Below, piece by piece: positions 27,280 through 64,000 of a stretch of 64,000 nucleotides of DNA. Each line of letters starts with the position of its first letter. The first letter of the stretch is position 1. The notes under the pieces are model-generated. The model was not told the origin of the DNA, did no database searches, and was given only the letters and a program-made list of their open reading frames with translations. The position numbers were made by a program, and so were the translations under genes. The stretch is from Branchiostoma floridae (taxonomy: Eukaryota > Chordata > Leptocardii > Amphioxiformes > Branchiostomatidae): NCBI RefSeq assembly GCF_000003815.2, contig NC_049986.1:81398-145397 (forward strand). Direction: 5' to 3'.

Positions 27280-27294
27280 ATAAAATGTTCATTT

Positions 27295-27432
27295 TGCGTT
27301 GAGATCATTTTCAAGAATCTTGAGACTTATTAAAATGATCTCAAGATTCTCACGAAAAATCTCAAGATTGACTCAATACATCTCAAGATTTACCACAAAA
27401 TCTCAAGAATTTTGAAAGAAATCTAAAGATTT
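27295..27432. repeat. Iterated TCTCAAGATT motif (left arm copy)
   Basis: '(a)tctcaagatt' or its complement recurs about every 20-25 bases, with the hairpin-like 'gatcattttcaag..ttaaaatgatctca'. A mirror copy is at 63845-63985. Function unknown. Confidence 0.7.
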
Positions 27433-27757
27433 TTTTTAATTTTCAACGAGGCTCTAAGACCCTCGCTGTGGTCGATATGATCCAATGAGTACCAGAGAAG
27501 TTTTTCACAAAATCAGCAATGTAAGTTTAAGCTGTAAGAGGCTACAAGCATTTGTCCAAAGTGCTATGCTCATTCCAATAATAATCTGCTCGCTGTAAGT
27601 AATATTCTATAAATGGTTATTTCTGACCAAAAATTATTGTACGGCGATTAATAACCGTATAATAGTAACTAATTATGAGTTATTTGTCAATTTTCTTTAA
27701 TGCTCGTAATTTTCAGACAATTATGTATTTGCCCAAAAGTTATGCCTTGTCACTTTA

Positions 27758-28613
27758 TTACCTTTGCCAGAATAGCCATTCTGGCAAAGGTTATATTTTC
27801 GGTCCGGTTGTGTGCTTTCCCCCCGTTTGTGTGCAGCATAACTCCAGATGACTGCGACGGATGCGGCTGATATTTGGTGGGTGGGTAGGGGTCTGGAGAA
27901 AGAAGGGGGAGTTCGATAATGGGCCCCCTAGCGGCTTGCTAAGGTACTGCAACGGACCCTGCATGCTTGATATCTCGCGTATTGGACTTGCTGCGGTCGT
28001 GATTTTTGAGCGGTAGGGACCCTTTAAAGCAGAGAGTGACTGCTGCGAGTTTGGGCCCCCTAGCGGCTTTCCTGGAAGTGCAGGCGCCGGTTTACTTGCA
28101 AAATTTTGTCCGTGGACAGCATAACTCGAGAAGATTTCGACGGACGCTGATGATATTTGGTGGGTGGGTAGGGGTCTGGAAAACGGAGGTCAACTTCGAT
28201 GATGGGCCCCCTAGCGGCTTCCCTTGGTACTGCAGCGCAACTTCCGGGTGTGTTTTCTCATCTTCTAAACATGGTATGGTCACGAATTTTGGGTGTTAGA
28301 TAGCTCTTGTGCTCAGGAGTGAGTGACATAAGTTTGGGCCCCCTAGTTGCCCTTATTCTTGGTCTACAGATTATTAAATCTCATGTGTACATAGCATGTA
28401 CACCCCATCATGTATAATGTACTGTCCCTATAAACAATTTTCTTGTAATCTTATCGTCTGGTTTATAGTCGGGTTGACCTCTTTTGCAGCAACTATGACC
28501 TTTGGGGTCACTTCTTGTCAATCTTGCACTTTAGGCTTGGGCATGACGTAACCATTACACCCAAATATAGCCACAGTTCCAGAATGGCTATGGTTATGTT
28601 TTGTGCTTGTGAG

Positions 28614-28661
<48 letters not shown>

Positions 28662-29905
28662 TGTGTGTTAACAGCATAACTCAAGAAGCCTCGGATGGAT
28701 CCCGATAATATTTGGTAAGTGGGTAGGGGTTGGGAAAACGAAGGGCAAGTTCAATAATGGGCTCCCTAGTGGCTTGCTAAGGTACTGCAGCAGAAACTCA
28801 ATTTTCTATATCTCGTGTTCTGCGATGTTTAAATGGTAAATAGCCCTTGGGGCAGAGAGTAAGTGCTGTACGTTTTGACCCCCTAGCGGCTTGTTTGGAA
28901 CTGCAGCCGCCGATTTCCTTTCAAACTTTGGAGGAGAATAACTCGGGAACGTGTAGAAGGATCGTCATGATTTTTGGTATGTAGATAGCCCAAGTAACAA
29001 TGTACATGATGAAATACTAATTATTCAAATCAACAGCTAATTTCGTAATTTCATGATAGGACTTTTAAACTTGTCACATATATAGATGAGAAAGAGAAAA
29101 ATATCAATGCATATTAATTATGCAATTGACCTCATTTGCATAATTAATGAGAAAATATGAATGTGTTGACGGATCGTCATGATTTTTGGTATGTAGATAG
29201 CCAAAGGGAAGACTTACATGATGGACTTCTAATTATGTAAATCGACAGCTAATTTGCATAATCAATGAGGAAAGTTTGTAAATCTACTGCATTCCATTAT
29301 AGGACTTTCAAACTTGTCACATTTGTAGCTGAGAAAGAGAAATGTCAATACACATTAATTATGCAAATGTTGATCTCATTTGCATAATTAATGGAAAAAT
29401 ATGAACGTGTCGACGGATCGTCATGATTTTTGGTATGTAGATAGCCTAAGTAAAAACTTACATAATGAGATACCAATTAATAGCTAATTTGCATAATTGA
29501 TGAGGAAAGTCGATAGATACACTGCATTCCGTGATAAGACTTTCAAACTTGTCACATATGTAGTTGAGAAAGATGGCAGAGAGTAAGTGGTGTATGTTTG
29601 GGTCCCCTAATGTCTTTTCTTGAACTGCAGATGTCGATTTTGTTTCAGACTTTGAAAGAGAATAAGTCAAGAATGAAAGGATCATCATGATTTTTGGTAT
29701 GCTCATAGCTTAAGTGATGCTTGATACAATTTGATATTAATAGTGTAAATAGGGATCTAATTTGTATAATCAATGGCGAAATTTTATGAACCAACTCCAG
29801 GCATATAAAATAAAATGTAATGAGTAACATATTTATGTATACAGACATCATTCTACATAACAAACCTGGTTTATTTGGCAAAGTTATGTGTTCGTGGAAC
29901 TCTAG
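27758..29905. mobile_element. AT-rich non-autonomous element, family C, copy 2 (left arm only)
   Basis: Starts near cctttgccagaatagcc and ends near tcgtggaactctag, in opposite orientation to the copy at 11080-12354. The right arm reads through (about 63510-63535: 'tatatcaagtgacaagg'), so the insertion came after the duplication. Inside are a (TG)n tract at 28619-28657 and four degenerate tandem units of about 220-265 bases, each with 'catgatttttggtatg' (near 28965, 29180, 29420 and 29685). The exact target duplication could not be fixed. Confidence 0.65.
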
Positions 29906-30805
29906 TATAGACTGCTCACACAAGACATCCAGAAAGTATTGCTCTGTTAAACGGTTGTTTCAATCTGGGCACAAGACCTTCTAATAACATTGTTAATTAT
30001 ATTTTTTTAACGAAAACATAGAGAGTCAAAATTTTTCTTTTTACAATCTTTTGAATATGTGTGATTTTCATCAACTAGCCACATTTTGTTGACAACAGAT
30101 AGTTACACTAGAAGTTACGTGGCTCGAGTGGCCAACACATGGGTGTCATATGCCTTAATAAGGTTGAAATGACAAATTTGGAGACTTTTGCTTTTCATAC
30201 CCATTTTGGACATGTGAGATTAAATATAACTTTGGTGTAAAACAAAATGAAAATCCCAAAATGAATCATTTGATGAAGTGCATACCAAAAGTGTTGAATA
30301 AATTACATCATGTGGGCATATGTCATAGGCATCCACATACGAACATTCAGGACATATGGTTTCAATGGTAGCCAGGGGGTGGGAGCCCCAGTAAACTAAA
30401 ATGGCTGATTCTGAGGATATTAAGATAGGGCATAGAAGCCGGGACATTTACATTTGTAGTCTGAAAATAGCCCCAAACCACAAAATCAAATCAAATCATT
30501 CAATGTGAGGTATGCCAAAATCGTCAACATGTTCGATTGTTTTTATTTAATTTACCAGGGGTGACAAATCGGCATTGTATTGGTGGTTTTCAATGTGCCT
30601 TGGGGGGGGGGTGTAACCCAAGACAAACATGTACATACATGTTAAATAGAATAATAGGTAGCATTGAAAGAGAAAATTAACCTTAACGCAATACGAATCA
30701 ATACAAATGATAGCAACTTAGGAATAATCAATACATAATATCATTTTACGATATAAGTAAATCAAAATTTAATATTGACATAATATGACTAAAAACATAA
30801 GGCCA

Positions 30806-31675
30806 TGTTGATTTGATTATATGGATGGCATCCTCTGGGAACTCCAAAACTGATGCGAGCGAGCGAATAAAAAAAAGTTTGGCCAAAAAAAAAAAGTTGC
30901 CTTCAGTATGAAATCAAAATGGCCAGGAAGGTTGAACATAGGACTTAACACACTTAGTATGGTATACCAACAGTTAGGTGTAGGGACCAGTACATCATAC
31001 GGGTGCAAAACATTTTTATTTTCTTCTTGGACCAATCCGAAAAAAAAGACCTGAAAAAAATCAGAGGAACAGGTTTTGCCAATTACGAAATGGACACACT
31101 ATGTCATCATGCATTTTGGGTCTTACTTGGGGCTAAGAAGACAACAAGAGCGAAGTCAAGTAGATTTAATAGTCAATTTTACCAAGTTTCTACAGTCAAA
31201 GGTACAGAGACAGTTAGCCTTCATTACATGGAGATAGGATTTTAAAATGCCAGTGGGAGTCGGATAATCAACCGAACAGATTCCTTTGTAGCAAAATTGA
31301 CCAATTACCATTACTTTGAGTATTGCCAGTTCTCCAGTTTCCACAGACAGCAAGGTCCAGGTTCAGGTCCGGACCTGAAAATGATCCTCTGGACCTGAAT
31401 ATGACCTTTACCTGAATTTTCTGTACTGGTACCACCCCTACCAACAATAGATTTTTTTCTTTCTGTCCTTTCACATCTTATTCTTTGACTTTAGATTTAT
31501 TTGGGCATTCTATGGCATTAGTTATCTGTTTTCTGATACTTCTATCTAAGGAACATTTCTGCTCATTTTACAGCTGCTTTGCACAATTTATTGTGTGGTC
31601 GAAAACTTTTTTTTTTTTTGGAAACGGCCGAAAATTGGTGCGAGCGCGGATGTCATCCATATAATCAAATCAACA
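30806..31675. mobile_element. TIR-bearing element present in both arms (left copy)
   Basis: Bounded by inverted TGTTGATTTGATTATATGGA and its complement. The inner sequence includes 'ggtccggacctg' blocks that resemble the hAT-type MITE at 46064. The same element is at 61733-62607, so it was there before the duplication. Confidence 0.6.
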
Positions 31676-31744
31676 TTGCCTAAGTAGAAAGAAATGATAG
31701 GGGAAATGAATGAAATAACTACGGCGTCAAGCCTCCAGTTTTAA

Positions 31745-34139
31745 GAGCTGATGTCTGTAAAAACCAAGCAAAATCAAAAAAAAGTTGGCCAAACTGAAAA
31801 AATCAATTTTCCTTAAATTTTGTGTGGTGGTAGGGCCTTGGTCCAAACCTACAAAAATGGCAAAGTTTTAGATCTGCAGTAAACAGTTGCCATGGCAACG
31901 GCCATTTTTCAAAATGGCGGATTTTCACCAAGGGAAGGCCTTAGTCGTGTACAAAATAGACCTTCTTTGGACTCCTGTAGCCCCCACAAATTAACAGATA
32001 TTTTATTGATTCTCACATATGTTATTACCCATATTCTAATAAGAAATGATATATAGTGATGCTCGAAATATTTTTGTAGTGAGGTGCAGCAAATGTTTAA
32101 AAGTGATGTGTTTTCGTGAATTTCCAAAATTGACAAAATCCATTTTTTGACCATTTTCATTGACCATTAGCTCATTAAAAGGCAAATCAATTTGCTTGAT
32201 TTTTGGCACACTTATAGTTTGGACCTCTGTATACATCATATGTAAAAAGAAATTTGGGACTTTAACGGAACGGACCGTGGTGACCCCGAGAGTAAACCAT
32301 TATTTCCATTTCAAGAAAATCGTAACCATAGTATTATTCCTGGAAAAACAGTCATAGCTTACCAAAAATCAATCTCAGTTTCATTTTATGTAGCAGAGAC
32401 ACCTACCTATCACTTATTAAAGCAGGGTCGTTCGAGATTTTTTTTTGTAATTGCCTTTGAAATGATTTTATTGAGTTTTTTTGGTCATTTTTAGACCAAA
32501 AATGTATATTTTGGCCCCAGTACCCTGGTATTACAACCAAATGACCTGAAATTTGGTATAGAAATGCCCTGGACATGTACACACATGGGTTGATAACTGG
32601 TTTGCCATATAATAGAACAAAATGCTTAATTTTGTGATTTTTTGGTGCCATTTTTGGCCTAAAAAGTACATTTTTGGCCCCTGTACCCTGGTTTTACAAC
32701 TAAATGACCTGAAATTTGATATAGGAATGACGTGGACACATGCGCACATAGATTTAATAATAATATTGGCATACTGTGCAACAAAATGCTAAATTTTGTG
32801 ATTTTTGGTCATGTTCTTTTTACAAAAAGTACATTTTTGGCTCCTGTACCCTGGGTTTACAACTGAATGATCTAAATTTGGTATAGGAATGCCCTGGACA
32901 TATGCGCACATGGATTTGTGATTTTTTTTTCCATTTTTTTACTACAAAATACATTTTGGGCTCCTGTACCCTGGTTTTCCAACTAAACTAATCTGAAATT
33001 CGGTATGGGAACGCCCTGGACATGGCTTTAATAACACTTTTTGGCAATTTACAATTTACGAAAATAACACTTTNNNNNNNNNNNNNNNNNNNNNNNNNNN
33101 NNNNNNNNNNNNNNNNNNNNNNNNNNNNNNNNNNNNNNNNNNNNNNNNNNNNNNNNNNNNNNNNNNNNNNNNNTCCAAGGGAGTTCAGGAGGTCATTTGC
33201 TTGTAATGCCTAATAGGGCACATGCAAGGTGCAAAGTACAGGGGCCAAAAATGTACTTTGGATAAAACAATGACCAAAATTACAACATTAAGCGTTTTGT
33301 TGAACTGTATTTAAAAGGGCATTTCTATACCAAATTTCAGGTCATTTGGTAGTAATACCAGGGTACTGGGGCCAAAATATACATTAATTTTTTGGTCTAA
33401 AAATGACCAAAAAAACTCAATAAAATCATTTTAAGGCAATTATTAAAAAAATCTCGAACGACCCTGCTTTAATAAGTGATAGGTAGGTGTCTCTGCTACA
33501 TAAAATGAAACTGAGATTGATTTTTGGTAAGCTATGACTGTTTTTCCAGGAATAATACTATGGTTACGAATTTCTTGAAATGGAAATATTGGTTTACTCT
33601 CGGGGTCACCACGGTCCGTTCCGTAAGAGTCCCAATTTTTTTTTTACATATAATGTATACGAAGGTCCAAACTATAACTGTGCCAAAAATCAAGCAAATT
33701 GATTTGCCTTTAAATGAGCTAATGGTCAATGAAAATGGTCAAAAATGGATTTTTGTCAATTTTGGAAATTCACGAAAACACATCACTTTTAAACATCTGC
33801 TGCACCTCACTACAAAAATATTTCGAGCATCACTATATATCATTTTTTTTATTAGAATATGTGTAATAACATATGTGAGAATCAATAAAATATCTGTTAA
33901 TTTGTGGGGGCTACAGGAGTCCAAAGAAGGTCTATTTTGTACGCGACTAATGCCTTCCCTTGGTGAAAATCCGCCATTTTAAAAAAAATGGCCGTTGCCA
34001 TGGCAACCGGTGACCGCAGATCTAAAACTTTGCCATTTTTGTAGGTTTGGACCAAGGCCCTACCACCACACAAAATTTAAGGAAAATTGATTTTTTTTAG
34101 TTTGGCCACCCTATGCTTGGTTTTTACAGACAGGGACTC
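31745..34139. mobile_element. TTAA-flanked palindromic element (left arm only)
   Basis: Flanked by TTAA at 31741-31744 and 34140-34143. The right arm has a single TTAA at the matching empty site (61667-61670: 'aggatcttaaaactgg'). Termini are GAGCTGATGTCTGTAAAAAC and GAGTCCCTGTCTGTAAAAAC. The two halves (about 31745-32650 and 33230-34139) are inverted copies of each other; the centre carries family A sub-units and a 100-N gap. TTAA duplication is typical of piggyBac and Kolobok transposons. No transposase is present, so it is non-autonomous. Confidence 0.85.
33074..33173. other. Assembly gap (100 N)
   Basis: A run of exactly 100 N at the centre of the palindromic element, probably a placeholder where assembly failed on the inverted repeat. 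Confidence 0.99.
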
Positions 34140-34366
34140 TTAAGATCCCACTGAGCTAGACTGAAAGACAACGTCAATCATTCATTCACGAAGCTCTCTC
34201 TTTCTCTAATGTATCAGTAATGACGCACTAATATCAACTGTTATATTGACGTATAACTATTATAAATGCTGCACAATCAATGTCTGTACTTGTAATTGTA
34301 GGTAAAACTATTATACAATTTTAAATATGTTTTGAAATATCTGTAATAAGTTTTAAACTTAGGACA

Positions 34367-36292
34367 AAGAATGAAGGCGCTATGCGTATCAAGTATCTTC
34401 CCAACTGTTTTCAAAACATTCTCAGGCCTTTGTATTTTGGTCACTGTCACGTACAACGCGATGACTTGACACCTTTGTGAACCGGTGTCAGCCAAGCAGT
34501 AAGAAAGACGCAGGGTCCTTTCGCGAAGCTACTTGAGTGTTTCTTCAAGATTACTCAAGATTACTCTTCATACAACGGCTTTTCACAATAGATCACCCTT
34601 TGACACAAGTTGCAGGTCATCAACAGAAAGGTGAAAATAGTAGCAATTGGCCACCTAGACAGATAACATGCACTCTAGGGGGAGCCCGGTATATTTATCA
34701 TATTATTTTAGTTCCAAAAAGTGTTTCTGTCGAAAAACGTGTTAACTACTTTCACTTGTGATAAGGGTTGACACAATCATATCACATTATTTTACCAGTA
34801 GATTCAATTTGATTTCTTACCATTCTTACTAGTAAAATAATGTGGTAGTGGGGTACTAACACATTATTTCACTAATAGAGACATTCTGTATATCTCTTTC
34901 TAGTAAAATAATGTGTTAGTGGGGTACTAACACATAACAGCTAAAATCCAAGTTATCACAACTTTTCCAACTATCACGTTTTCTGTCCTAAAATTCTATT
35001 CAGGGCTAAATAAATGTGATAAATAATCAAGTCTCTAGGGGGAGTTTTTTCCCTGTCGAAAACTGTAGTTTGGCCCGGCTAACTCCTTTACTGTGTTGTC
35101 CGTCTAATTGACCATTTTCTGCCGTCCCGGACAACACATGGAGTAATCGGTAGAGTCTACAAGGTTCGGACAATTTGACCATATCAGAGTGGCTCTAGAT
35201 CTGTTGCTCATTGAGGGAGGCGACATTTACCTGAACCTCTGTTCTATTTTAAACCCATCTTTAAGAAAGACTTTGTTCACTGACATCACTAAATGTTATA
35301 TTTACCATTAAGGGCAAGGCAGGGAAACTTTATTCAGCCCAAAGCTACCTACATTCTGCTCGACTGCACAAGACGGGTGTCCTTGACCTTCTCCCAACAT
35401 GCAAGCATGACAAAGAATCAAAGCGCTATATGCGTATCAAGTATCTTCCCAACTGTTTTCAAAACATTCTCAGGCCTTTGTATTTTGGTCACTGTCACGT
35501 ACAACGCGATAACTTGACACCTTTGTAAACCGGTGTCAGCCAAGCAGTAAGAAAGACGCAGACTCCTTTCGCGAAGCTACTTGAGTTTTTCTTCAAGATT
35601 ACTCAAGATTACCTCTTCATACAACGGCTTTTGACTATAGATCACCCTTTGACACAAGTTGCAGGTCATCAACAGAAAGGGGAAAATAGTTGCAATTGGC
35701 CACCTAGACAAATAACATGCACTCTAGGGGGAGTTTTTTCCCTGTCGTAAACTGTAGTTTGGGCCGGCTAACTCCTTTATTGTGTTGTCGGTCTAATTCA
35801 CCATTTTCTGCCGTCCCGGACAACACATGGAGTAATTGGTAGAGTCTACAAGGTTCTGACAATTTGACCATATCAGAGTGGCTCTAGATTTGTTATTCAT
35901 TGAGGGACGCGACATTTACCTGAACCTCTGTTCTATTTGAAACCCCATCCTTAACAAAGAATTTGCTCACTGACATCACTAAATGCTATATTTACCATGA
36001 AGGGTAAGGCAGGGGAAACTTTATTCAGCCCAATAGCTACCTACATTCTGCTCGACTGCACAAGGCGGGTGTCCTTGACCTTCTCCCAACATGCCAGCAT
36101 GACAAAGAATCAAGGCGCTATATGCGTATCAAGTATCTTCCCAACTGTTTTCAAAACATTCTCAGGCCTTTGTATTTTGGTCACTGTCACATACAACGCG
36201 ATGATTTGACACCTTTGTGAACCGGTGTCAGTCAAGCAGTAAGAAAGACGTAGGATCATTTCGCGAAGCTACTTGAGTGTTTCTTCAAGATT
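34367..36292. repeat. 690-base tandem unit, about 2.4 copies (left arm)
   Basis: The unit starts at 'tgacatcactaaatg' (35281 and 35971; period 690). A partial earlier copy runs 34367-35280 and is itself interrupted at 34685-35044. Landmarks are 'tcaagtatcttcccaact', 'gacaccggt/accggtgtc', 'cgaagctacttgag' and 'cactctagggggag'. A degraded relic of one end ('ccatatcagagt', 'gacatttacctgaac') lies at 40965-41020, just upstream of P450 gene 1. Reading frames are not conserved between copies. Confidence 0.8.
34685..35044. mobile_element. 360-base insertion with 12-base target duplication (left arm)
   Basis: CTCTAGGGGGAG stands at 34673-34684 and again at 35033-35044, while the other unit copies and the right arm have it once. 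The insert contains two palindromic blocks 'aataatgtg..agtggggtactaacaca' (near 34835 and 34905). Family unknown. Confidence 0.65.
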
Positions 36293-36299
36293 ACACATC

Positions 36300-38880
36300 T
36301 TCCTGTACGTGTATCCCGGCTACACATGCCCTTATAGCAAGGCGAGATAAAGTTTTATTTAGAGGGTAGTTTTAGGTTGGACAGTCACTCATGGAGTAGG
36401 CTAAATCTACCGGTTCAGAGTCAAATCCTTTGGCTAGGCCTTACTAGCTATTTTCAAGGTACATGATACAGATCTATAGAGAACCTTACCAAGTCTGGCT
36501 TTCTAGCGCAATGCTTACCGCCATATCGTTGTCCTTACCGTTGTAACGTTTCTAAGATAAGATATAAATGCTACATGTAAATGCGACATGTGCACTACCG
36601 AACATTGTCTATTACTTTTTTTGTATGATAGTACATGTATATCTTTAGTATATTTAACGTCACGTTAACATTCATAACCAAAATACTGCAACGTGTTCTG
36701 CATTTTTTCAAGTGATACCAAGGATGGTGATACTAATTTAGCAAATGATCAACGTATCATTTTATATCCCAATTACATAACGATGTGTAAAACGTATCTA
36801 ATTGCAATTGCTAGCAGGTTCTAACAGGCTTAAAACTTGACATACAGGATACAAAACTACCCATGTCTTTTTTTACAAAGTTGTAAAAATTACAACTACA
36901 ACGCTTACAACTTACAAATTTCCACATGTGCATGTGCCTAGGCCTAGGATAGTCTCCAATACCTGTAGGAAAGGAATTTTTTGTCATTGAGCCTGTAATG
37001 GGCATATGAAAATGTTCTGATATGCGTTTTAGTTGCGTTTTATAGGAGGCCTTTGGTTTTTGCCAGTTCACACAAAATGAAGTCTTCAAACATGACAGGA
37101 TGACTGTAGTCATTATACTGGTATACACCGTCCTTTGCCGCGCCTGTCACTCGCCTTCCTCCTCTATCACCTCCATGAAAGGACATAACGTCGACGTCCT
37201 TGGTCGGAAGCAACTGATATTTTGAGTTGCGAGTGGAAGTCACAAGTAGTGACTTCCTTTGGTTCAACGTTGGGCATGTCTGACATACTGGTCACAGGGA
37301 ATGTCCATAAAGACATGCATGTTCATAAAGATATTTTATACAATGTAAGAAGATGGGCATGTTTCTTTTGTCAGAAAAGAGGAGGGAACCGTAGGCTTAC
37401 TACTATGATGTGACTTGTGTGGGGACCAGTACCAAACGGTTGGAAGTGTGTCGTGGCACTGTGGTAAAGGTCACCACTTCTCTGACCCCAACACCAAAGG
37501 CTTTCCACTTCTAGACTCGCATGTCTTCATCAGTTTCAAACAAGAAATTGTTCCATGACTTGACGTCTTCCTTTTTTTGTCTTGCATTGCTTGTTTGCTT
37601 TGCCTTGTTTTACCTGTTTGTGCTATTCTACAGCCCTTATGCCTCCACATGACTGCATGTCTTTTAAGGTTAAGTTATGTTTTTCATTGACATACTGTGT
37701 TGTATGTGGATGCTATCTTGGGGTCACAAATGCCTTTATTACCTGCCTGACGGTCTGAGAAGGCAAAGCGTAGCATTGGAATGCTATTTTTCTAACCGAT
37801 CGCTGGCAGAGACAATATCAGTTCAGCGTCCGGCATTGTCCCATGTAGAAACACTTTTCGTTAAAAAAGAAGATGGCTAAATTTTCCAAATAGACACCAT
37901 GAACATTGTAACAAGAATTGAAGCAATTGGTATCACAGCCAAATTCGTTTATGCATAAGCTTTGTTTTGTATATATTTCTTGATAAGATAATGTATAAGT
38001 AGCTGATTTAAAGAAAGTGATAATTAATAGCACTGCTTTTCTTAGTGAAGGGTTCTTGGGCTTGACGGTCTAAAGCACAATTTGAAGAATGGCACAGATA
38101 GTTGACCAATCCTTGTGGCTTTTGTGGCAAATGTGGACAAAACATCCCACATCATATTTGGCATCGCCCCCCCCCCCCTTTATGTGATTACTGCAGCATC
38201 TTGTCAGCTCAAAAAAGTTTGCCATCTGCTGTCTGTACTTCGGTGAGAAGAATTCCATGCCCAGTCCATAACTACGAAAGCTAATTGGTTATCTAGCCTC
38301 CGCAAAGAAGACTGTTTGGCAAAATCTTGGCTTGCTACTCATAGCAAATGGGGCTTCGAGCTGTAAATGGCTGAAAAGAAGTAATCAAAACTAAAACATA
38401 GTGGACGCTTGTGTTCCTATGTGACGACGCCCTCCTTCTCAAGCAGCTTTTGTACTTAGATAATAAAGATTTTTTATACTAATGACTTTTCAGAGCCCTT
38501 GCTTTATTTCCACTGACGTATTTGCATCTGTAAGTAACGACACCTATAGCTGCAGTACAATGTGCATCAGCCAGAATTGCCATGGGGACGGTGACAGACG
38601 ATCACTGAAACGTGGTGAAAATAAAACAAGGGTTGTGAAAAAAAGATCTTTATTCAGTAACGTACACGTACCAACATGATGAAACTATTCATGGATCTTT
38701 TTAACTTCAGAAATACTATTTTCTACCTCAGTCCATCGTTCACAGACAATGGCTATCGGTGTTAGTAAGTCCTCCGCGAATCACTCATCGGTGGCGCCCA
38801 ACATCATTCCTAATCCCTTCGGCCACATAATTGTGCAATTTTTTTCAGTGGGGGCTAGTCTGATGGTAGTAGCGTGTGTT
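36300..38880. other. Left-arm non-coding DNA, mirrored in the right arm
   Basis: Collinear with about 56520-59100 inverted. No exon, RNA gene or element ends were recognised. The short frames are not conserved between the two arms, which argues against coding function. Confidence 0.45.
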
Positions 38881-39340: not shown

Positions 39341-39458
39341 CCCTGATATGGTTCGTCTTATACTGTAAGTTCATTTATTTTCACGGGGATAAAATTTCAC
39401 GGTAGGAGCGGAAAGAATATTGTTTCGCGGTGTTTTAAGTATATATGCAAAAAGAGGG

Positions 39459-49796: not shown

Positions 49797-49803
49797 TGTA
49801 TCC

Positions 49804-52800: not shown

Positions 52801-52905
52801 TCCCATTCTCATTCCCAGGTTTCTCAGCGCACTGTAGGCAAACTTGCGTTTTTCTTTGTAGGCTTGGTTGAATTTTGAGAACCCGAGGTCTGTGAGATAT
52901 ATGAT

Positions 52906-52985
<80 letters not shown>

Positions 52986-53053
52986 CGAGGTATATATATG
53001 ATATCATATGATATCATATATCTCACAGACCTCGGGTTCTCAAAATTCAAAAT

Positions 53054-53091
<38 letters not shown>

Positions 53092-54143
53092 CATACGCCA
53101 TGCATTGAAGGGAAGAACAAAGAGGTATGGTGCCTGTACCATTGTTTATTTACCCTTGTTTGCAATTCTGCTAGAATTGGGTCATCTTGCACTAGTGCAT
53201 AGCGCCGCAGGCAATACATCTTGAATTGGGACCAAAACAATAGGGGTTCTGGGAAAGACTACTAGCGCACCGAAGGTGGCTAAGAAATCAGGCCACCTTA
53301 TAGTGACAGATTTTCGGTTCCTTTTGTTTGTTTGTTTGTTTGTTTATTTATTTATCCAGGGGTACATGGTCGGCGTTTTTCAAAGATCTCTGGGGGGAAA
53401 CCCCGTACATACATAACAATAATCAAGGACAATACAAAATTAAATAAATTGTAACTTAGCAAGAATCGATAAAGAATAACGCAATTTAACTAAGACAAGA
53501 TAAGGCAAATCAATTTTACAACGTTAATCCTAATATAACTCCAAATCATAAGTGAAATCAAATAAGTAATGGATAATTTGCATACCAATGTGAACAGAAA
53601 AAGACATGACGGATTACATTTCATACCATTATCATCATGTTAAAAATTTACCTTTACAGTCGTCATGTCAAAAATAATGCAACTGTTACACTAAATGTTA
53701 CATATAACGATGTAAAATCGTTCACTATCAGGATATCGTCATTTCAAAACCATACATAGTGGCATGCGAAATTGGAAGAGAAGAACGTACGCACTTTTTC
53801 CAAACCCAGAAAACAGATTCAGCACATACACGCTTGGCCTGCTGGAGAAAGCATCCTTGTAGTCCACAAGCGCCTCTTTGATGGCCCGGCAGCCGTTCAG
53901 AACCACCACGTCTTCCATCCCCATTCGAACAGTGTACACGTCGCCATACTGCTTCCTCCACTCCGTAAGCTTCAGGTGGGGCGCTCGGCCGAGGGACAAC
54001 AGGTGGCCGACAACAGGCCAGCTCCCACTCGGTGATGGTGGGAGGTTCTTACGCCGTTTGAAGAAGACGAGAAGGGTGAGGAAGACGACCAAAAACAACG
54101 CGATGGTGCGGATGGAGACTTCTGACAACAACGCAGAAAACAT
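49804..54143 (-). CDS. Cytochrome P450, CYP2 clan, gene 2
   Basis: Seven exons with the same phases as gene 1: 54143-53795, 52889-52747, 52497-52284, 51665-51382, 50831-50637, 50313-50178 and 49982-49804 (TAG), giving 499 residues. It has the same microsomal layout: an N-terminal anchor, KRRK, PPSPSG, the I-helix FTAGVETTAS with Glu308, K-helix EIQR, DPRRF and the haem loop FSTGRRACIG with Cys445. All donors are GT, including GTGAGT at exon 6. I count roughly 45-50 amino-acid differences from gene 1, plus one extra Gly after the K-helix (PLGGPHAP). The differences spread over all exons and leave the motifs intact, so this is a functional-looking paralogue. Substrate is unknown. Confidence 0.92.
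52866..53051. repeat. Local hairpin with (TA)n loop over the exon 2 acceptor of gene 2
   Basis: The exon 2 start and acceptor (52866-52900, containing aacccgaggtctgtgagat) recur as an inverted copy at 53021-53051 (atctcacagacctcgggtt). A (TA)n-rich loop lies between. Gene 1 has one copy only. A (CT)n tract follows at 53052-53075. Confidence 0.8.
53310..53650. mobile_element. Right-arm-specific insertion in gene 2 intron 1
   Basis: Begins with (tttg)n and 'tatttatttatccaggggta' and has 'aaccccgtacatacataac'. It is absent at the matching left-arm place (about 42185-42215). It resembles the block at 30540-30650 (LINE or SINE tail type). Ends are approximate. Confidence 0.5.
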
Positions 54144-54799
54144 TGTTCTGTGTTCGAAAAAAATGAGAGGGTTTGTACTTACAAGAAATACAACATCTAC
54201 AAGAAATGAACAAATACAGCATATTTCCATCCCTTTGCCCATGCCCGTGCATGGGCTAATTCAACATCCCTCCCCTTCCGACTGGTTCACAATTTGGATC
54301 CCTTCTCGCATACACAAGGCACTATTGTTTATCACTGTTGACGCTACACACCATCTACCAGTCACTGACACTGTTTACTGATGCTAGAAGTTTGTTGCCA
54401 CTGTGCCATGGCATTCGTCAGGTGGGAAGGAGTTGGCTCTAGAAAGTGATAAAAAGGACGATGTTTCGTCTGAAAATATTCAAGAAGGCTCAGAGTGTCA
54501 GTTGATTGGGAAGATGTGCCAGTAACGTCAGAGATACTGTTTCGATGCATCAGTCTTGTATCCTTCTTCATTCGCCTTGCACATCCCTTAATGTAGGGTT
54601 TACAAAAAAGCTGGGCTGACTAACTGGGCTGTCTATTCGTGTTATCTAACGCGCCTGGCTATCACGTCAGGCTACTCAGATCCGTTCATATCCCTAGAAA
54701 TGGTCATGTACCAATGTAGTTGCGTTCTTTAATCTAACGGGATGCATGAAAATTACATACATTACACTGGGCATAGTATTCTGGGTAATAGAGAAAGAT

Positions 54800-57700
54800 A
54801 ATTGAATAAAACTAAACCACCCCCAAGTTCAGGTAAATGTCACATCCCACACTTCAATAAACAACAATGCAACGTCTTTTAACAGATACCTTACTAAATC
54901 AATGCGTATATCTATTATATCGTACACGATAAAAAAAGGCTCCTTATGGGGCTTACCAGGACGAACATATAATAAAACATGTTTGAACAGAATTACGCTG
55001 TACAGTACTGCAGCACAAGGAGAATTCTAAACTTTACTTTGTGTAAGAATGACAAGTGGCAGTTACGACCGATGCACACATATTCATGGCACGGCCGTTT
55101 GTTTAACAGATCGTTATCAGTGCAGGAGAAGTCACCTACAGGCATATCTGTTGGATCGTGACATTCAAAACAAGGCAAGGAGTCAATTATCATGCAAGTT
55201 CATTCAGTGCTACGCATAGTATCTCATCTATAACAAATAAAGACGATATTACCCCTTGAGATAGCTTCTAATCCATTATCAAGATCATAAATGTAACCAA
55301 GTATGATGAAAAAACTGTTAGAATCATTTAGAAGAAATAAAGACGATCTTACACTTTTAAACAACTGCTACTTCATAATCAATATCATAAGCGTAACTAA
55401 GTATGATAGTGTTGAAATTGAACCAGAGGGAGATCGAATGGAAATATGTTGCTATAGTGTATCAAAACTCGATACCCTATGGCTTGCTAGAGGCCCCCTT
55501 TTTGCATATATACTAGGAGTCCTTTAAGTTCCGTTCGAGACGTGATAAAAATTTCGAGGTCATGTGCCATCATGGTGTCCGGCTTGTGGTCAGTAAGGGT
55601 CCCGGTGTGTACTACGATATCGTTTAAACCGCGAACTTAAAACACCGCGAAACAATCGTTTCCACTCCTACCGTGAAATCACTCCTACCGTTGGGACCAT
55701 GATAAATCAGGTAGTGATGTTTCAGTATGGAGGTAAATTATGGAGCCTTTTTGTGTAGCTGTGAGCCTGTGTGAAAACCACACATAACTGTCATAAAACT
55801 ACAATACATTAGATGCATTGATTTTGGTTGTACACGGGGTATATAAGGACATTTGAAAAGGAATAAAGTTGGTTTGGCACATGTTATCGTTGTTTTTTTA
55901 CGTGGAGGGGTTTGTTACTGACTAAACCATTGTGTAAACTTAATCTGTTCAATAATGAGACGGGCTCTGTATGGACATTCAAAACACAGATAACATAGAA
56001 CTATTTTATATTGATAATCCATTCAGAAAGACCAATTATAAACTTGAGGTGAGTAACAAAAGGAAATTCTTAACTAGAAAAAAAGTTTGAGCACACATCC
56101 TGATCAATTAGAATATACTGCAAATGTGATGGTCTATTTTGTGTTCGCCTTGCACTCGAGATTGTTAGGATGTGAGTTTAATCTCTGACCGTGTCATACC
56201 AAAGACATTTTAAAAATGGGACCCGCTGCTTTCTCTGCTTAGCACTCAGCACTCAGGAAACAATATGTCAATTTAAACATATCAAGACTGGGTTTTTTTT
56301 TACCATGGAACCCCCCCCCCCTTCGTATTTATTACTGTACGATCACCAAATTTGCAGGGGGTGATGGGCTTGTTGAGTTTCATAATTCCTAGAATTTTTT
56401 ATCATTTTGACGTAATATGACGTAATTATGACGTCATTAATAGTAAGTAACCCGTTGATATGGCTATATGACGTCAAAGTTGCCGCGGGCACTTTTAGCC
56501 CCCCCCCCCATACATATACAAACACACGCTACTGACATCAGACTAGCCCCCACTGAAATAATTTGCACAATTGTGTGGCCTAAGGGATTAGGAATGATGA
56601 TGGGCGCCACCGATGAGTGATTCGCGGAGGACTTACTGACAACGATAGCCATTGTCTGTGAACGATGGACTGAGGTAGACAATAGTATTTCTGAAGTTAA
56701 AAAGACCCATGAATAGTTTCATCATGTTGGTACGTGTACGTCATTGAATAAAGATCCTTTTTTCACAACCCTTGTTTTATTTTCACCACGTTTCAGTGAT
56801 CGTCTGTCACCATCCTCAGGGCAATTCTGGTGGATGCACATTATACTGCAGCTATAGGTGTCGTTATTTACAGATGCAAATACGTCAGTGGAAATAAATC
56901 AAGGGCTCTGAATAGTTATTAGTACAAAAGATCTTTATTATAGTAAGTACAGAGGCTGATTGAGAAGGAGGGCCTCCTCACAGAGGAACACAAGCGTCCA
57001 CTATGTTTTAGTTTTGATTACTTGTCTTCAGCCATTAACAGTTAGAAGGCCCATTTGTTATGACTAGCAAGCCAGGATTTTGGCAAACAGTCTTCTTTAC
57101 GGAGGCTAGATAAGCAATTGGCTTTTGTAGTTATGGACTGGGCATGGAATTCTTCTCAATTAAGTACAGACAGCAGACGGCAGACTTTTTTAGCTGACAC
57201 GAGGCTGCAGTAATTACACAAAGGGGGCGATGCCACGTATGATGTGGGATGTTTTGTCCACATTTGCAACGAATGCCATAAGGATTGGTCAGCTATCTGT
57301 GCCATTCTTCAAATTATGCTTTAGACCATGAAGCCAGAGAATCATTCACTAACAAAAGCAGTGCTAGAAATTATAACCTTATTCAAATCAGCTACATATC
57401 TATTATCTTTTCTTCCAGTCACTACTTATATTTATCTTATCAAGAAATATATACAAAACAAAGCTTATGCATAAACGAATTTGGCTGTGATACCAATTGC
57501 TTCGATTCTTGTTACAATGTTTATGGTGTCTATTTTGAAAATTTAGCCATCTTCTTTTTTAACGAAAAGTGTTTTTAGATGGGTCAATGCGGGACGCTGT
57601 ACTGATTTTGTCTCTGCGAGCGATCGGTCAGAAAAATAGCAGTCCAATGCTGTGCTTTGCCTTCTTAGACCGTCAGGCAGGTAATAAGGGCATTTGTGAC

Positions 57701-59100
57701 CGCAAGATAGCATCCACATATAAGTAAGACGGTATGTCAATGAAAAACATAACTTAACCTTGGAAGACATGCAGTCATATGTAGGCATAAGGGATGTAGA
57801 ATAGCACAAACAGGTAAAACATGGCAAAACAAACAGGTAATGCAAGACAAAAATAGGAAGACGTCAAGTCATGGAACAATTTCTTGTTTGAAACTGCTGA
57901 AGACATGCGAGTCTGGAAGTGGAAAGACTTTGGTGTTGGGGTCAGAGAAGTGGTGACCTTTACCACAGTGCCACGACACACTTCCAACAGTTTGGTACTG
58001 GTCCCCTTGGTCACACACAAGTCACATCATAATAATAAGCCTACGGTTCCCTCCTCTTTTCTGACAGAAGAAACATGCCCATCTTCTTACATTGTATAAA
58101 ATATCTTTATGAACATACATGTCTTTATGAACATTCCCTCTGACCAGTATGTCAGACGTGCCCAACGTTGAACCAAAGAAAGTCACTACTTGTGACTTCC
58201 ACTCGCAACTCAAAATATATCAGTTGCTTCCGACCAAGGACGTATGTCCATGCATGGAGGTGATAGAGGAGGAAGGCGAGTGACAGGCGAGGCAAAGGAC
58301 GGTGTATACTAGTATAATGACTACAGTCATTCTGTCATGTTTGAAGACTTCAATTTGTGTGAACTGGCAAAAACCAAAAGCCCTCAAATAAAACGCAACT
58401 AAAACGCTTATCAGAACATTTTCATATGCCATTACAGGCTCAATGACAAAGAAAATTCCTTTCCTATAAGTATTGGAGACCATCCTAGGCCTAGGCACAT
58501 GCACATGTGGAAATTTGTAAGATATAAGCTTTGTAGTTTAGTTTTTACAACTTTGTAAAAAAAAAAGACATGTACATGTATGTCAAGTTTTAAGCCTGTT
58601 AGAACCTGCTAGCAATTACAATTAAGTACGTTTGACACATCGTTATGTAATTGGGATATAAAATGATACGTTGATCATTTGCTAAATTAGTATCACAAAA
58701 ATGCAGAACACGTTGCAGTATTTTGGTTATGAATGTAAACGTAACGTTAAATATACTAAAGATATACATGTACTATCGTACAAAAAAGCAATAGACAATG
58801 TTCGGTAGTGCACATGCCGCATCTACATGTAGCATTTATGTCTTATGTTAGAAATGTCACAATGGTAAGGACAACGATATGGCGGTAAGCTTTGCGCTAG
58901 AAAGCCAGACTTGGTAAGGTTCTCTCCAGATCTGTAACATATACCTTGACAATAGCTAGTAAGGCCTAGCAAAAGAATTTGACTCTGCACCGGTAGATTT
59001 TGCCTACTCCATGAGTGACTGTCCAACCTAGAACTACCCTCTAAATAAAACTTTATCTCACCTTGCTATATAAGGACATGTGTAACCGGGATACACGTAC
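54800..59100. other. Right-arm non-coding DNA
   Basis: The mirror of left-arm 36300-41030 except for about 54870-55125, which has no left counterpart. It includes the poly-C / TGACGTCA repeat at 56290-56520. No gene was recognised. Confidence 0.45.
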
Positions 59101-61445
59101 AGGAAGATGTGTAATCCTGAAGAAACACTCAAGTAGCTTCGCGAAAGGATCCTACGTCTTCCTTACTGCTTGACTGACACCGGTTCACAATGGTGTCAAG
59201 TCATCGCGTTGTACGTGACAGTGACCAAAATACAAAGGCCTGGGAATGTGTTGAAAACAGTTGGGAAGATACTTGATACGCATATTGCGCCTTGATTCTT
59301 TGTCATGCTGGCATGTTGGGAGAAGGCCAACGACACCTGTCTTGTGCTGTCGAGCAGAATGTAGGTAGCTTTTGGGCTGAATAAATTTTCCCTGCCTTGC
59401 CCTTCGTGGTAAATATAACATTTAGTGATGTCAGTGAGCAAAGTCTTTGTTCAGGATTGGGTTTCAAATAGAACAGAGGTTCAGGTAAATGTCACGTCCC
59501 TCAATGAACAACAGATCTAAAGCCACGCTGATATGGTCAAATTGTCCGAACTTTGTAGACTCTACCGATTACTCCACATGTTGTCCGGGACGGCAGAAAA
59601 TGGTCAATTAGACGGACAACACAATAAAGGAGTTAGCCGGCCCAAACTACAGTTTTCGACAGGGAAAAAACTCCACCTAGAGTGCATGTTATCTGTCTAG
59701 GTGGCCAATTGCTACTATTTTCACCTTTCTGTTGATGACCTGCAACTTGTGTCAAAGGGTGATCTATTGTCAAAAAACGTTGTAGGAAGAGTACGAGGGG
59801 TGATCAATAAGTTCTTGACCAGGCATTCGTTTTTTCTAAATTAGAAGGTAAGTGGCGAGAAAAAGAAGGGTGAAGTGTGATGAGACAATTTGACCCGCAC
59901 ACCTCAGGTTGCAGATCAATTGTCCACTTTTTTTTCGTTATCCCTTACCTAACGTTACTGGGTGTCGCCTGCAACGTAATGATCACAATAATTAAAAATT
60001 TGGTACACATTTATATAAGACTTTATACATGTACGTGAAGTTATCAATAAGTCCTCGGCTGTACCGAGAAATAATAAGCATAGCTCAGATTTCGAAGCAT
60101 AGATGTCAAGTATAAAGTCTTATATAAATATGTACCAAAATTCAAATTATTGTGATCATTACTTTGCAGGCGACATCCAGTAATGTTAGGTAAGGGAGAA
60201 GGAAAAAAACGTGGACAATTGACCTGACCTGATGTGGCGGGTCAACTTGCGCTGCTGGAAGTGAGACACCCAATTCTTTTTGCTTGAAATAGGAAGAGAA
60301 TCATTATCAAACATTTTGACAATGTCTTTTGTTAATTTACGGCATGGGGAACTCGTAAAACACATGTCGGATCACAATTCACACCACTTTTTTCTCGCCG
60401 CTTCTGATTTGCAAAAAACGAATGCCTGTGAAGTAATGACTCCAATGATTTGAAATTTGGAGGATATGGATAAAAGGCTCCATACTATGAAGTTGTGCCT
60501 CAAAATTTGTGTTGTGCTTATCATTTCTTTTTTGGGGCCGAGAACCTATTGATCACCCCTCGTAATCTTGAGTAATCTTTAAGAAACACTCAAGTAGCTT
60601 CGCGAAATGATTCTGCGTCTTTCTTACTGCTGGGCTGACACCGGTTCACAAAGGTGTCAAGTCATCGCGTTATACTTGACAGTGACCAAAATACAAAGGC
60701 CTGAGAATGTTTTGAAAACAGTTTGGAAGATACTTGATACGCATATTGCGCCTTGATTCTTTGTCATACTGGCATGTTGGGATAAGGTCAAGGACACCCG
60801 TCTTGTGCAGTCGAGCAGAATGTAGGTAGCTATTGGGCTGAATAAATTTTCCCTGCCTTGCCCTTCATGGTAAATATAACATTTAGTGATGTCAGTGAGC
60901 AAAGTCTTTGTCAAGGATGGGGTTTCAAATAGAACAGAGGTTAAGGTAAATGTCGCGTCCCTTAATGAACAACAAATCTAGAGCCACTCTGATATGGTCA
61001 AATTGTCCGAACCTTGTAGACTCTACCGATTACTCCACATGTTGTCCGGGACGGCAGAAAATGGTCAATTAGACGGACAACACAATAAAGGAGTTAGCCG
61101 GCCCAAACTACAGTTTTCGACAGGGAAAAAACTCCCCCTAGAGTGCATGTTATCTGTCTATGTGGCCAATTGCTACTATTTTCACCCTTGTTGAGGACCT
61201 GCAACTTGTGTCAAAGGGTGATCTGTTGTCAAAGCCGTTGTATGAAGAGTAATCTTGAGTAATCTTGAAGAAACACTCAAGTAGCTTCGCGAAAGGACCC
61301 TGCGTCTTTCTTACTGCTGGGCTGACACCGGTTTACAAAGGTGTCAAGTCATCGCGTTGTACGTGACAGTGACCAAAATACAAAGGCCTGAGAATATTTT
61401 GAAAACAGATGGGAAGATACTTGATACGCATAGCGCCTTCATTTT
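59100..61445. repeat. 690-base tandem unit, about 2.3 copies (right arm)
   Basis: Units begin near 59110, 60570 and 61255 at 'gaaacactcaagtagctt' and run to about 59793, 61254 and 61445. They are the mirror of 34367-36292. A mariner-like MITE interrupts between the first and second units. Confidence 0.8.
59794..60562. mobile_element. Mariner-like MITE, 769 bases, right arm only
   Basis: TA flanks (59792-59793 and 60563-60564). The ends are CGAGGGGTGATCAATAAGTT and, inverted, CGAGGGGTGATCAATAGGTT. The empty site is seen in the next tandem unit at 61245 (gaagagtaatcttgag). Almost the whole element folds back on itself: 'gtcgcctgca' and 'ataagactttatac' occur inverted around 60080. The TA duplication and TIR style suggest Tc1/mariner; no transposase is present. 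Confidence 0.85.
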
Positions 61446-61732
61446 TTTGTCCTAAGTTTAAAACTTATTACAGATATTTCAAAACATTATTAAGATTGTA
61501 TAATAGTTTTACCTAAAATTACAAGTACAGACATTGATTGTGCAGCATTTATAATAGTTATACGTCAATATAACAGATGATATTAGTGCGTCATTACTGA
61601 TACATTAGAGAGAGAGCTTTGTGAATGAATGATTGACGTTGTCTTTCAGTCCAGCTCAGTAGGATCTTAAAACTGGGGGCTTGACGCCGTAGCTATTTCA
61701 TTCATTTCCCCTATCATTTCTTTCTAATTAGG

Positions 61733-62607
61733 CAATGTTGATTTGATTATATGGATGACATCCGCGCTCGCACCAATTTTCGGCCGTTTCCAAAAAAAAA
61801 AAAAAGTTTTCGACCACAATTGTGCAAAGCAGCTGTAAAATGAGCAGAAATATTCCATAGATTGAATAAAAATTATCAGAAAACAGATAACTAATGCCAT
61901 AGAATGCCAAAATAAATCTAAAGTCAAAGATTAAGATGTGACAGGACAGAAAGAAAAAAAATCTATTGTTGGTAGGGGGAGGTACCAGTACAGAAAATTC
62001 AGGTAAAGGTCATGTTCAGGTCCAGAGGATCATTTTCAGGTCCGGACCTGAACCTGGACCTTGTTGTCTGTGGAAACTTGAGAACTGGCAATACTCAAAA
62101 CAATGGTAATTGGTCAATTTTGCTACAAAGGAATCTGTTCGGTTGATTATCCGACTCCCACTGGCATTTCGAAATCCTATCTCCATGTAATAAAGGCTAA
62201 CTGTCTCTGTACCTTTGACTGTAGAAACTTGGTGAAATTGACTATTAACTCTACTTGACTTCGCTCTTGCTGTCTTCTTGGCCCCCAGTAAGACCCAAAA
62301 TGCCTGATGACATAGTGTGTCCATTTCGTAATTGGCAAAACCGGTTCCTCTGATTTTTTTTTCAGGTCTGTTTCTTTTTCGGATTGGTCCAAGAAGAAAA
62401 AAAAATGTTTTGCACCCGTATGATGTACTGGTCCCTACATCTAACTGTTGGTATACCATACTATGTGTGTTAAGTCCTATGTTCAACCTTCCTGGCCACT
62501 TTGATTTCATACTGAAGGCAACTTTTTTGGGGGGGGCCAAACTTTTTTTTTTATTCGCTCGCTCGCATCAGTTTTGGAGTTCCCAGAGGATGTCATCCAT
62601 ATAATCA
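61733..62607. mobile_element. TIR-bearing element present in both arms (right copy)
   Basis: The inverted counterpart of 30806-31675, with the same ends (TGTTGATTTGATTATATGGA). The 174-codon open frame inside it at 62016-62540 is not conserved as a frame in the left copy and shows no domain. Confidence 0.6.
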
Positions 62608-63844
62608 AATCAACATGACCTTATGTTTTTTAGTCATACTATGATAATATTAAATTTTTGATTTACTTATATCGTAAAATAATGTTATGTATTGATTATT
62701 CCTAAGTTGCTATCATTTGGCTTGATTCGTATTGCGTTAAGGTTAATTTTCTCTTTCAATACTACCTATTATTCTGTTTAACATGTATGTACATGTTTGT
62801 CTTGGGTTACCCCCCAGGGCACATTGAAAACCGCCAATACAATGGCGATTTGTCACCCCTGGTAAATTAAATAAAAACAAACAAACATGTTCACGATTTT
62901 GGCATACATCACCTTGAATGATTTAATTTTGTGGTTTGGGGCCATTTTCAGACTACAAATGTAAATGTCCCGGCTTCCATGCCCTATCTTGATATCCTGA
63001 GAATCAGCCATGTTAGTTTACTGGGGCTCCCACGTGCACCCCCCCCCCGCCTTGCTACTATTGAAACCATATGTACTGAAAGTTCGAATGTGGATGCCTA
63101 TGACATATACCCACATGATGTACTTTATTCAACACTTTTGGATGCACTTCATCAAATGATTCATTTTGGAATATTCATTTTGTTTTAAACCAAAGTTATA
63201 TTGAATCTCACATGCCCAAAATGGGTATGAAAAGCAAAAGTCTCCAAATTTGTTATTTCAACCTTATTAAGGCATGTGACACCCATGTGTTGGCCACTCG
63301 AGCCACGTAACTTCTAATGTAACTATCTATTGACAACAAAATGTGGCTAGTTGATGAAAATCACACATATTCAAAAGATTGTAACAAGAAAAAATTTGAT
63401 TCTCTATGTTTTCGATAAAAAAAGTAAAATTAACAATGTTATTAGAAGGTCTTGTGCCCAGATTGAAGCAACCTTTTAACAGAGCAATACTTTTTGGATG
63501 TCTTGTGTAAGCAGTCTATATCAAGTGACAAGGCATAACTTTTGGGCAAATACATACTTTTCTGAAAATTACGAGCATTAGAGAAAATTGACAAATAACT
63601 CATAATCAGTTAGTATTATACGGTTATTAATCGCTGTACAATAATTTTTGGTTAGAAATAACCATTTGTAGAATATTACTTACAGCGAGCAGATTATTAT
63701 TGGACTGAGCATAGCACTTTGGACAAATTCTTGTAGCCCCTTACAGCTTAAACTTACATTGCTGATATTTTGTGAAAAACGTCTCTGGTACTCATTGGAT
63801 CCTTTCAACCACAGCGAGGGTCTAAGAGCCTCGTTGAAAATAAA

Positions 63845-63985
63845 AAAAATCTTTAGATTTCTTCCAAAAGTCTTGAGATTTTGTGGTAAATCTTGAGATG
63901 TATTGAGTCAATCTTGAGATTTTTCGTGAGAATCTTGAGATCATTTTAATAAGTCTCAAGATTCTTGAAAATGATCTCAACGCAA
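63845..63985. repeat. Iterated TCTCAAGATT motif (right arm copy)
   Basis: The mirror of 27295-27432, near the window end. Confidence 0.7.
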
Positions 63986-64000
63986 AATTAACATTTTTTT

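Follow-up and report, generated by a model that had tools for sequence, protein, structure and literature searches.

An apparent large inverted duplication around two convergent P450 genes in Branchiostoma floridae, possibly founded on recombination between paralogues

A 64,000-nucleotide stretch of a Branchiostoma floridae contig, which we refer to as the window, carries two convergent genes for cytochrome P450s of the detoxification type, one in each arm of a large inverted repeat. This raises the question of whether the locus was truly duplicated, and by what route, or whether two haplotypes have been assembled into one sequence. The initial annotation had described collinear arms in opposite orientation, a 4.1-kb spacer and a right arm that runs to the window edge. 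Self-comparison with blastn confirmed these points, giving a strictly ordered inverted chain whose last paired base is 64000, and the following features.

27279-45690, + strand: left arm, 18,412 bp, chained by inverted self-blastn matches to 64000-49798.
49798-64000, - strand: right arm, 14,203 bp up to the window edge, from the same inverted chain.
45691-49797: spacer separating the two arms, 4,107 bp (self-blastn).
31741-34145: TE-like insert private to the left arm (blastn), with inverted ends of about 830 bp and an empty site in the right arm.
59793-60569: TE-like insert private to the right arm (blastn), with inverted ends GAGGGGTGATCAATA, the left arm being empty.

Read from the outside inwards, the chain pairs 27279-27758 with 64000-63520 and 29906-31746 with 63520-61665, followed by 34140-34684/61670-61132, 35033-35612/61143-60562 and 35613-38959/59791-56463, then by 39164-39319/55845-55691, 39438-39841/55514-55133 and 40976-42193/54873-53649, and, innermost, by 42203-42420/53295-53077, 42402-42831/52933-52499, 43050-45376/52506-50169 and 45470-45690/50020-49798. 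The weakest of these blocks has an E value of 1.6e-61, which excludes a chance origin of the collinear inverted matches. The position at which the left arm had been thought to start, 27280, only mirrors the window edge: base 27279 pairs with base 64000, and therefore the outer end of neither arm is visible in the window. Near 35-36 kb and again near 59-61 kb, a unit duplicated in tandem allows alternative, out-of-order pairings in self-blastn; divergence was counted over strictly ordered blocks with no base used twice, and the pairing 35412-36297/61447-60569 was left out. Counted in this way, the arms differ by 6.2% (716 substitutions in 11,467 aligned columns), a value that, like all our counts, omits insert-only and unalignable stretches and may thus look lower and more even than otherwise.

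Both arms are broken up by private inserts. A TTAAGA direct duplication accompanies the left-arm insert and a short (TAC) direct duplication the right-arm insert, both read by eye. The left-arm insert also contains a 100-N gap (33074-33173), and no N occurs anywhere in 33174-64000. Neither tRNA nor Rfam matches at the gathering threshold were found within the window. As observed in the assembly, the large inverted duplication around the two P450 genes is confirmed. The genes themselves are as follows.

41705-45685, + strand: left P450 gene (L), CYP2-type, seven exons, 498 amino acids (hand-drawn exon models, translation, Pfam).
49804-54143, - strand: right P450 gene (R), CYP2-type, seven exons, 499 amino acids (hand-drawn exon models, translation, Pfam).

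The exon models were drawn by hand from the sequence alone, without transcripts. Predicted exons 1-7 of L are 41705-42053, 42446-42588, 43059-43272, 43924-44207, 44739-44930, 45232-45367 and 45507-45685, with a GC-AG splice pair at intron 6; those of R are 54143-53795, 52889-52747, 52497-52284, 51665-51382, 50831-50637, 50313-50178 and 49982-49804. Both products match Pfam PF00067 (E values of 1.3e-118 for L and 1.8e-119 for R), and the best solved relatives of R, the one product for which structural relatives were sought, are CYP2B and CYP2C. The signature motifs of P450 enzymes are the heme Cys loop, ExxR and AGx(E/D)T. By translation and alignment, R carries all three; L carries the Cys loop and ExxR, its I-helix motif being AGVGTT without the usual acidic residue, and despite this is still a P450 by its Pfam match. 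Both reading frames are open, and an alignment of the two proteins shows differences in 47 of its 499 columns, one gap included, in agreement with the roughly 45-50 differences per 499 residues originally estimated.

Between the genes, the spacer is absent from the arms except for a dispersed repeat at 46058-46504, which matches 30969-31447 and 61981-62428 at 67-68%. It contains an ORF fragment (48277-48912), which we take to be LINE-like and whose only Pfam match, to DUF6451, is sub-threshold, as well as the (TA)n tract that had been noted near the inner end of the homology and that we locate at 45752-45844, starting 67 bp past the L stop codon. The inner edge of the arms had been placed at the two stop codons. 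Homology does stop there, 5-6 bp past each stop; recent homology, on the other hand, ends inside the gene.

44254-45685, + strand: proposed hinge zone in L (changepoint in L-R divergence, Ks by exon), with its counterpart in the 3' part of R down to 49804.

Divergence between L and R is about 5.6% outside L position 44254 and 11.4% inside it, and the changepoint, which falls in intron 4 of the P450 gene, was matched in 0 of 200 shuffles. The step is not single, since the stretch from 44.25 to 45.23 kb is of intermediate divergence, and divergence climbs again from exon 6 (45232). Ks between L and R is 0.075 in exons 1-5 and 0.36 in exons 6-7, corresponding to 20 synonymous differences in 278 sites versus about 21 in 73.5 sites (rounded counts, Fisher p 3.4e-6). 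From this step and a third-position control, older inverted homology is present at the spacer edges. Over the 1.4 kb nearest the spacer the homology is thus older than in the rest of the arms, and it seems that the duplication began within one P450 gene, not beside it. The control makes use of a third copy, which served as an internal yardstick for L-R distances.

19505-25998, + strand: P3, a decayed P450 copy with pieces of exons 3-7 (blastn, tblastn).

Exon 5 of P3 is interrupted by a 1.8-kb insert, and two of the three pieces scanned match PF00067 (3.3e-08 and 2.6e-06). Third-position distances in exons 3 and 5 (120 sites) are 0.058 between L and R, 0.208 between L and P3 and 0.200 between R and P3; in exons 6 and 7 (70 sites) the corresponding values are 0.186, 0.229 and 0.186. 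Because P3 stays about equally distant from L and R in all tested exons, a difference in mutation rate is ruled out as the cause of the step, which we ascribe to a change of ancestry. Faster evolution of L was also dropped as an explanation, with 53 L-only and 45 R-only sites among 1,403 (p 0.48), a count that leaves out the end of intron 2, where the L and R pieces are unmatched. By blast, L intron 6 aligns with P3 at 72% (E 5e-11); intron 6 of R gave no blast match to that of L or P3. Sites private to P3 outnumber those private to R by 201 to 37 in introns 3-5, whereas in intron 6 the counts are 17 and 41, respectively (Fisher p 1e-15). Exons 6-7, with 8 R-only and 13 L-only differences in 207 sites, do not on their own group L with P3, so that the change in tree shape rests on intron 6, and the intron 6 of R could be an unrelated replacement instead of paralogue-derived sequence.

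From these observations, we hypothesize, with some but not strong confidence, that the locus is a genuine inverted segmental duplication, which arose when two P450 paralogues in convergent orientation recombined, a type of rearrangement that is already known. The starting order would have been flank A, P450 X (+), spacer and P450 Q (-). X and Q, which had diverged beforehand (Ks about 0.36), would have aligned with each other as inverted copies inside the gene. The exchange may have been NAHR, with a crossover joining two chromatids or two homologues, or a broken end may have folded back and been copied. Copying would have proceeded outward from X over flank A for at least 14 kb, presumably in a single event, and the product, if the assembly is correct, would read A, X (+), spacer, hybrid X5'/Q3' (-) and inverted A. 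L would then be the X gene and R a hybrid that retains intron 6, exon 7 and the 3' flank of Q; intron 6 points to R as the hybrid, and exons 6-7 do not decide.

The main rival to duplication by recombination, which we consider unlikely but by no means negligible, is an assembly error that fused both haplotypes of a single locus from a highly heterozygous animal, one of them inverted, either at the TA tract or inside the P450 homology. Divergence in the outer arms (5.1% for L up to 37750) and the Ks of exons 1-5 are close to the lancelet allelic values given in PMC4284660 (SNP 4.39%, dS 0.070-0.075). The initial view that L and R differ more than alleles would therefore does not hold for the Ks of exons 1-5, and does hold for the Ks of exons 6-7, with the mosaic gene that it implies, and for omega, which is 0.46 in exons 1-5 against 0.067-0.089 lancelet-wide, a range for all genes and not a P450 norm (PMC4284660). 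The reciprocal TE-like indels between the arms resemble lancelet allelic indels, the large ones being 65-77% TE-derived (PMC4284660). The (TA)n tract so close to the L stop is its own reverse complement and would suit an inverted join; such a join, however, predicts allelic 3' flanks, and those of L and R show no alignment beyond chance (66 columns, 51.5%, against a mean of 46% and a maximum of 79% in 40 shuffles per pair), a comparison that bears on a join at the tract and not on one inside the P450 homology. Alternative amphioxus haplotypes can assemble as separate loci (PMC9673378), and in a recent lancelet assembly curators still corrected 51 missing joins or mis-joins, along with 22 haplotypic duplications (PMC11907188); here, though, the join would sit in gap-free sequence. 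As a weak test, we compared the divergence of L up to 37750, a cut-off chosen after seeing the data, with simulated haplotype pairs at rho/theta of 0.1, 0.3, 1, 3 and 10 (300 runs each), and found it more even: the dispersion of 0.84 in 200-column windows was reached in 1, 0, 0, 1 and 7 runs, respectively, and the evenness in 400-column windows in 6, 2, 2, 13 and 70. Over the step-defined region up to 44254, evenness is not unusual at rho/theta 10 (140/300), and r/mu in B. floridae is about 8 (from 4.6 cM/Mb and 5.89e-9).

It is also conceivable, if rather improbable, that the arms are two haplotypes locked together in cis when the homologous chromosomes underwent exchange at the inverted P450 pair. 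Heterozygosity of about 4-5% would have made the copies divergent (Ks about 0.07) from the first generation, which would explain allelic-level divergence, the mosaic P450 and unrelated 3' flanks together, and new paralogues would arise without waiting for mutation. We give slightly less credence to an old inverted duplication (whole-arm Ks about 0.36) with arms homogenised by gene conversion that fades near the spacer, at the end of the flanking homology. Divergence does increase towards the spacer, passing through intermediate values at 44.25-45.23 kb, the pattern expected of an edge effect, but outer-arm divergence is rather even, not patchy, and a scan of arm identity found no conversion tracts beyond chance, the longest identical run (123 columns) lying within the shuffle range (median 106, 95th percentile 143). 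The ongoing arm-to-arm conversion proposed originally is thus unsupported, and mammalian sex-chromosome palindromes under conversion are >99% identical, against about 95% here (PMC8981503). Hairpin formation by the arms seems unlikely, given the 4.1-kb spacer and about 5% mismatch. Had the palindrome come from a sequencing-read artefact, for instance a hairpin adapter that escaped detection, the arms would be expected to be near-identical, not 5% diverged with private inserts in both; this reading was rejected.

Returning to duplication by recombination, its closest parallels are human inverted duplications with a disomic spacer, of fold-back or homology-mediated origin (PMC3907307). The 21 spacers sequenced in that series have a median of 3,428 bp, and hybrids of homologous inverted repeats form 3 of the 21 junctions: the spacer is short and single-copy in both (4.1 kb here, a median of 3.4 kb in the patients), and a hybrid between inverted homologous elements has the anatomy proposed for this locus. 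The patient rearrangements, in the table rows consulted, are mostly megabase-sized and lie beside terminal deletions, whereas at this locus two genes form the hinge, arm divergence is about 5% and the outer ends are beyond view. ODIRA inverted triplications resolved by secondary rearrangement (PMC10766186) would likewise supply inverted copies, with a spacer that NAHR or end joining has enlarged, but ODIRA predicts triplication or its remnants; we find two copies within the window, which cannot show more. Sex-chromosome palindromes (PMC8981503) also combine large inverted arms, a spacer and genes in the arms, and differ in the identity and conversion discussed above. CYP2 clusters shaped by birth, death and conversion (PMC4076195) resemble the locus in having local duplicates and a decayed copy, unlike which at least 14 kb of flank is duplicated here, and in inverted orientation. 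Among the titles listed in our literature searches, none concerned a P450 duplication of this inverted kind in amphioxus, which does not mean that no such paper exists, and the word P450 is absent from the main text of the amphioxus pangenome paper (PMC12373286).

If the duplication is real, a single step suffices for two convergent P450 genes to found a large inverted duplication and, with it, a hybrid enzyme gene, and homology that seems to end at a stop codon may conceal a breakpoint inside the gene. As a practical test, aimed at highly heterozygous genomes, a divergence step in the hinge gene, measured against an internal third copy, would separate inverted duplications from mis-joined haplotypes.

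Comparing the window with itself, we observed an inverted match chain that pairs 27279-45690 with 64000-49798 and leaves 4,107 bp in between, in keeping with the collinear, oppositely oriented arms and spacer of about 4.1 kb described by the initial annotation. The chain can be drawn strictly ordered, interrupted by inserts private to one arm; alternative pairings arise from a tandemly doubled unit present in both arms. Base 27279 pairs with base 64000, so that the duplication start previously placed at 27280 is imposed by the window edge and has to be abandoned: the true outer ends of both arms fall outside the view, and arm lengths are as seen within the window. A seven-exon P450 gene, transcribed towards the spacer, lies at the end of each arm.

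41705-45685, forward strand: left-arm P450 gene (L), 498 aa, seven exons, hand-drawn model
54143-49804, reverse strand: right-arm P450 gene (R), 499 aa, seven exons, hand-drawn model
19505-25998, forward strand: third P450 copy (P3), decayed, retaining pieces of exons 3 to 7
31741-34145, no strand assigned: 2.4-kb element private to the left arm, with a TTAAGA duplication; right-arm counterpart empty
59793-60569, no strand assigned: 0.78-kb inverted-end element private to the right arm; left-arm counterpart empty

The L and R exon models were drawn by hand using splice signals and homology. Both proteins match PF00067 (E below 1e-117), the closest solved structures to R are CYP2B and CYP2C, and the two differ at 47 of 499 alignment columns, including one gap, as the earlier estimate of about 45-50 residues had it. 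The splice pair of intron 6 is GC-AG in L (45368-45506) and GT-AG in R. P3 exon 5 is interrupted by a 1.8-kb insert (23427-25194) in which short repeats occur, AAGCGCTTTTAGGATAG among them, with some oppositely oriented. Also in the left flank are a C-type lectin exon (6531-6779, reverse strand; PF00059, E 8.3e-06) and a stretch without a Pfam match, 3245-3691 (reverse strand), that by eye is perhaps lectin-like.

In block alignments the substitution divergence of the arms is mostly 3-8%, but the block adjoining the spacer reaches 16%. When 11,467 columns are aligned with each base used no more than once, the best single changepoint falls within intron 4, at L 44254 (divergence 5.6% outside it, 11.4% inside; matched by 0 of 200 shuffles), and a count of 11,110 columns places it identically, as do the non-coding columns of that count alone (5.7% versus 12.3%; 0 of 200 shuffles). 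At synonymous sites L and R diverge by 0.075 across exons 1-5 but by 0.36 across exons 6-7 (Fisher test with rounded counts, p 3.4e-6). With P3 as a control for rate, exons 3 and 5 together (120 third positions) give 0.058 for L-R and 0.20-0.21 for P3 to both, and exons 6 and 7 (70 third positions) 0.186 and 0.19-0.23; since the distances to P3 are level, the L-R distance alone jumps. Judged from these alignments, the last part of L and R is of older homology than the rest of the arms. Homology had been thought to end at the stop codons; matches do seem to end there, because an older gene tail is seen through conserved coding exons, but divergence has already stepped up in intron 4. Divergence is intermediate at 44.25-45.23 kb, and the hinge, the 3' part where it rises, may therefore comprise two steps or have become a patchwork afterwards.

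L intron 6 matches P3 (72% identity, E 5e-11), while R intron 6 has no blast match to L intron 6 or P3; aligned globally, it is 0.576 identical to that of L (40 shuffles: mean 0.471, maximum 0.593). The ratio of P3-only to R-only sites is 17:41 in intron 6, against 201:37 for introns 3-5 taken together (p 1e-15). Of 207 sites in exons 6 and 7, 8 are R-only and 13 L-only, which makes R no more private than L there; the change in tree shape therefore depends on intron 6, and the R copy of that intron may have been replaced by unrelated sequence.

From this anatomy, we infer that the structure most likely originated by recombination of two convergent P450 paralogues in inverted orientation. Such an event would produce arms with recent common ancestry from within the gene outward, a spacer not common to them, and one gene carrying the 3' tail of the other paralogue; each arm would then have gained its own insert. 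Among 21 sequenced human junctions, as excerpted from PMC3907307, spacers span 766-70,466 bp (median 3,428) and 3 are hybrids of inverted homologous repeats. Arm-to-arm gene conversion, earlier named as something such a palindrome can undergo, found no backing, the aligned arm columns bearing no sign of recent conversion.

The doubled unit, about 575-690 bp (35033-36297 and 59108-61251), has copies ~6-7% apart, which hints that the doubling and the arm duplication were roughly contemporaneous or that some homogenisation took place. Arrays of a ~163-168-bp tandem unit are dispersed, in both orientations, at 5754-6143, 10066-10435 and 32477-32918, the last of them within the private left-arm element, which has long inverted ends. 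The spacer holds three two-copy tandem duplications in 1 kb, nearly or fully perfect: 47074-47152 (39 bp), 47790-47899 (55 bp) and 47953-48060 (51 bp).

Alternatively, the arms could be two mis-joined haplotypes of one locus. Outer-arm divergence (5.1% up to L 37750) and the Ks of exons 1-5 are near lancelet haplotype values (SNP rate 4.39%, dS 0.070-0.075; PMC4284660, in excerpt), so in a lancelet the arms could be alleles, and the initial view that the proteins differ more than alleles should holds for the Ks of exons 6-7 but not for that of exons 1-5. It also holds for omega in exons 1-5, 0.46 against 0.067-0.089 lancelet-wide (same excerpt), a norm that may not be that of P450 genes. Of the two N runs in the window (15816-16402 and 33074-33173), the second sits within the left-arm private insert; 33174-64000 is N-free, the hinge region being gap-free, which favours paralogues. 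The L and R 3' flanks, likewise in favour of paralogues, show no alignment beyond chance, one 59-bp AT-rich same-strand match aside. Divergence up to L 37750, a cut-off chosen once the data had been seen, is fairly even (dispersion 0.84, 200-column windows): at rho/theta 0.1, 0.3, 1, 3 and 10, simulated haplotype pairs were as even in 1, 0, 0, 1 and 7 of 300 cases, in 6, 2, 2, 13 and 70 with 400-column windows (dispersion 1.08), and in none of 300 per setting with 100-column windows. When the changepoint defines the region instead (L up to 44254; 200-column dispersion 1.60), the counts were 5, 0, 1, 7 and 140 per 300. Crossover (~4.6 cM/Mb; PMC12500494) over mutation rate (5.89e-9; PMC12862219) is near 8 in B. 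floridae, both values coming from excerpts, so for a lancelet the evenness test lends the paralogue reading mild support only. Taken together, a real duplication appears probable to us and a mis-join rather unlikely; a recount with no base used twice altered several counts and left this weighing unaffected.

The I-helix motif is AGVETT in R and AGVGTT in L, and L is one residue shorter within the R stretch PLGGPH, a deletion located after the ExxR helix; for both motifs we assume the usual P450 meaning. Because of the altered motif and the deletion, L, its frame still open, may have lost or changed its mono-oxygenase activity.
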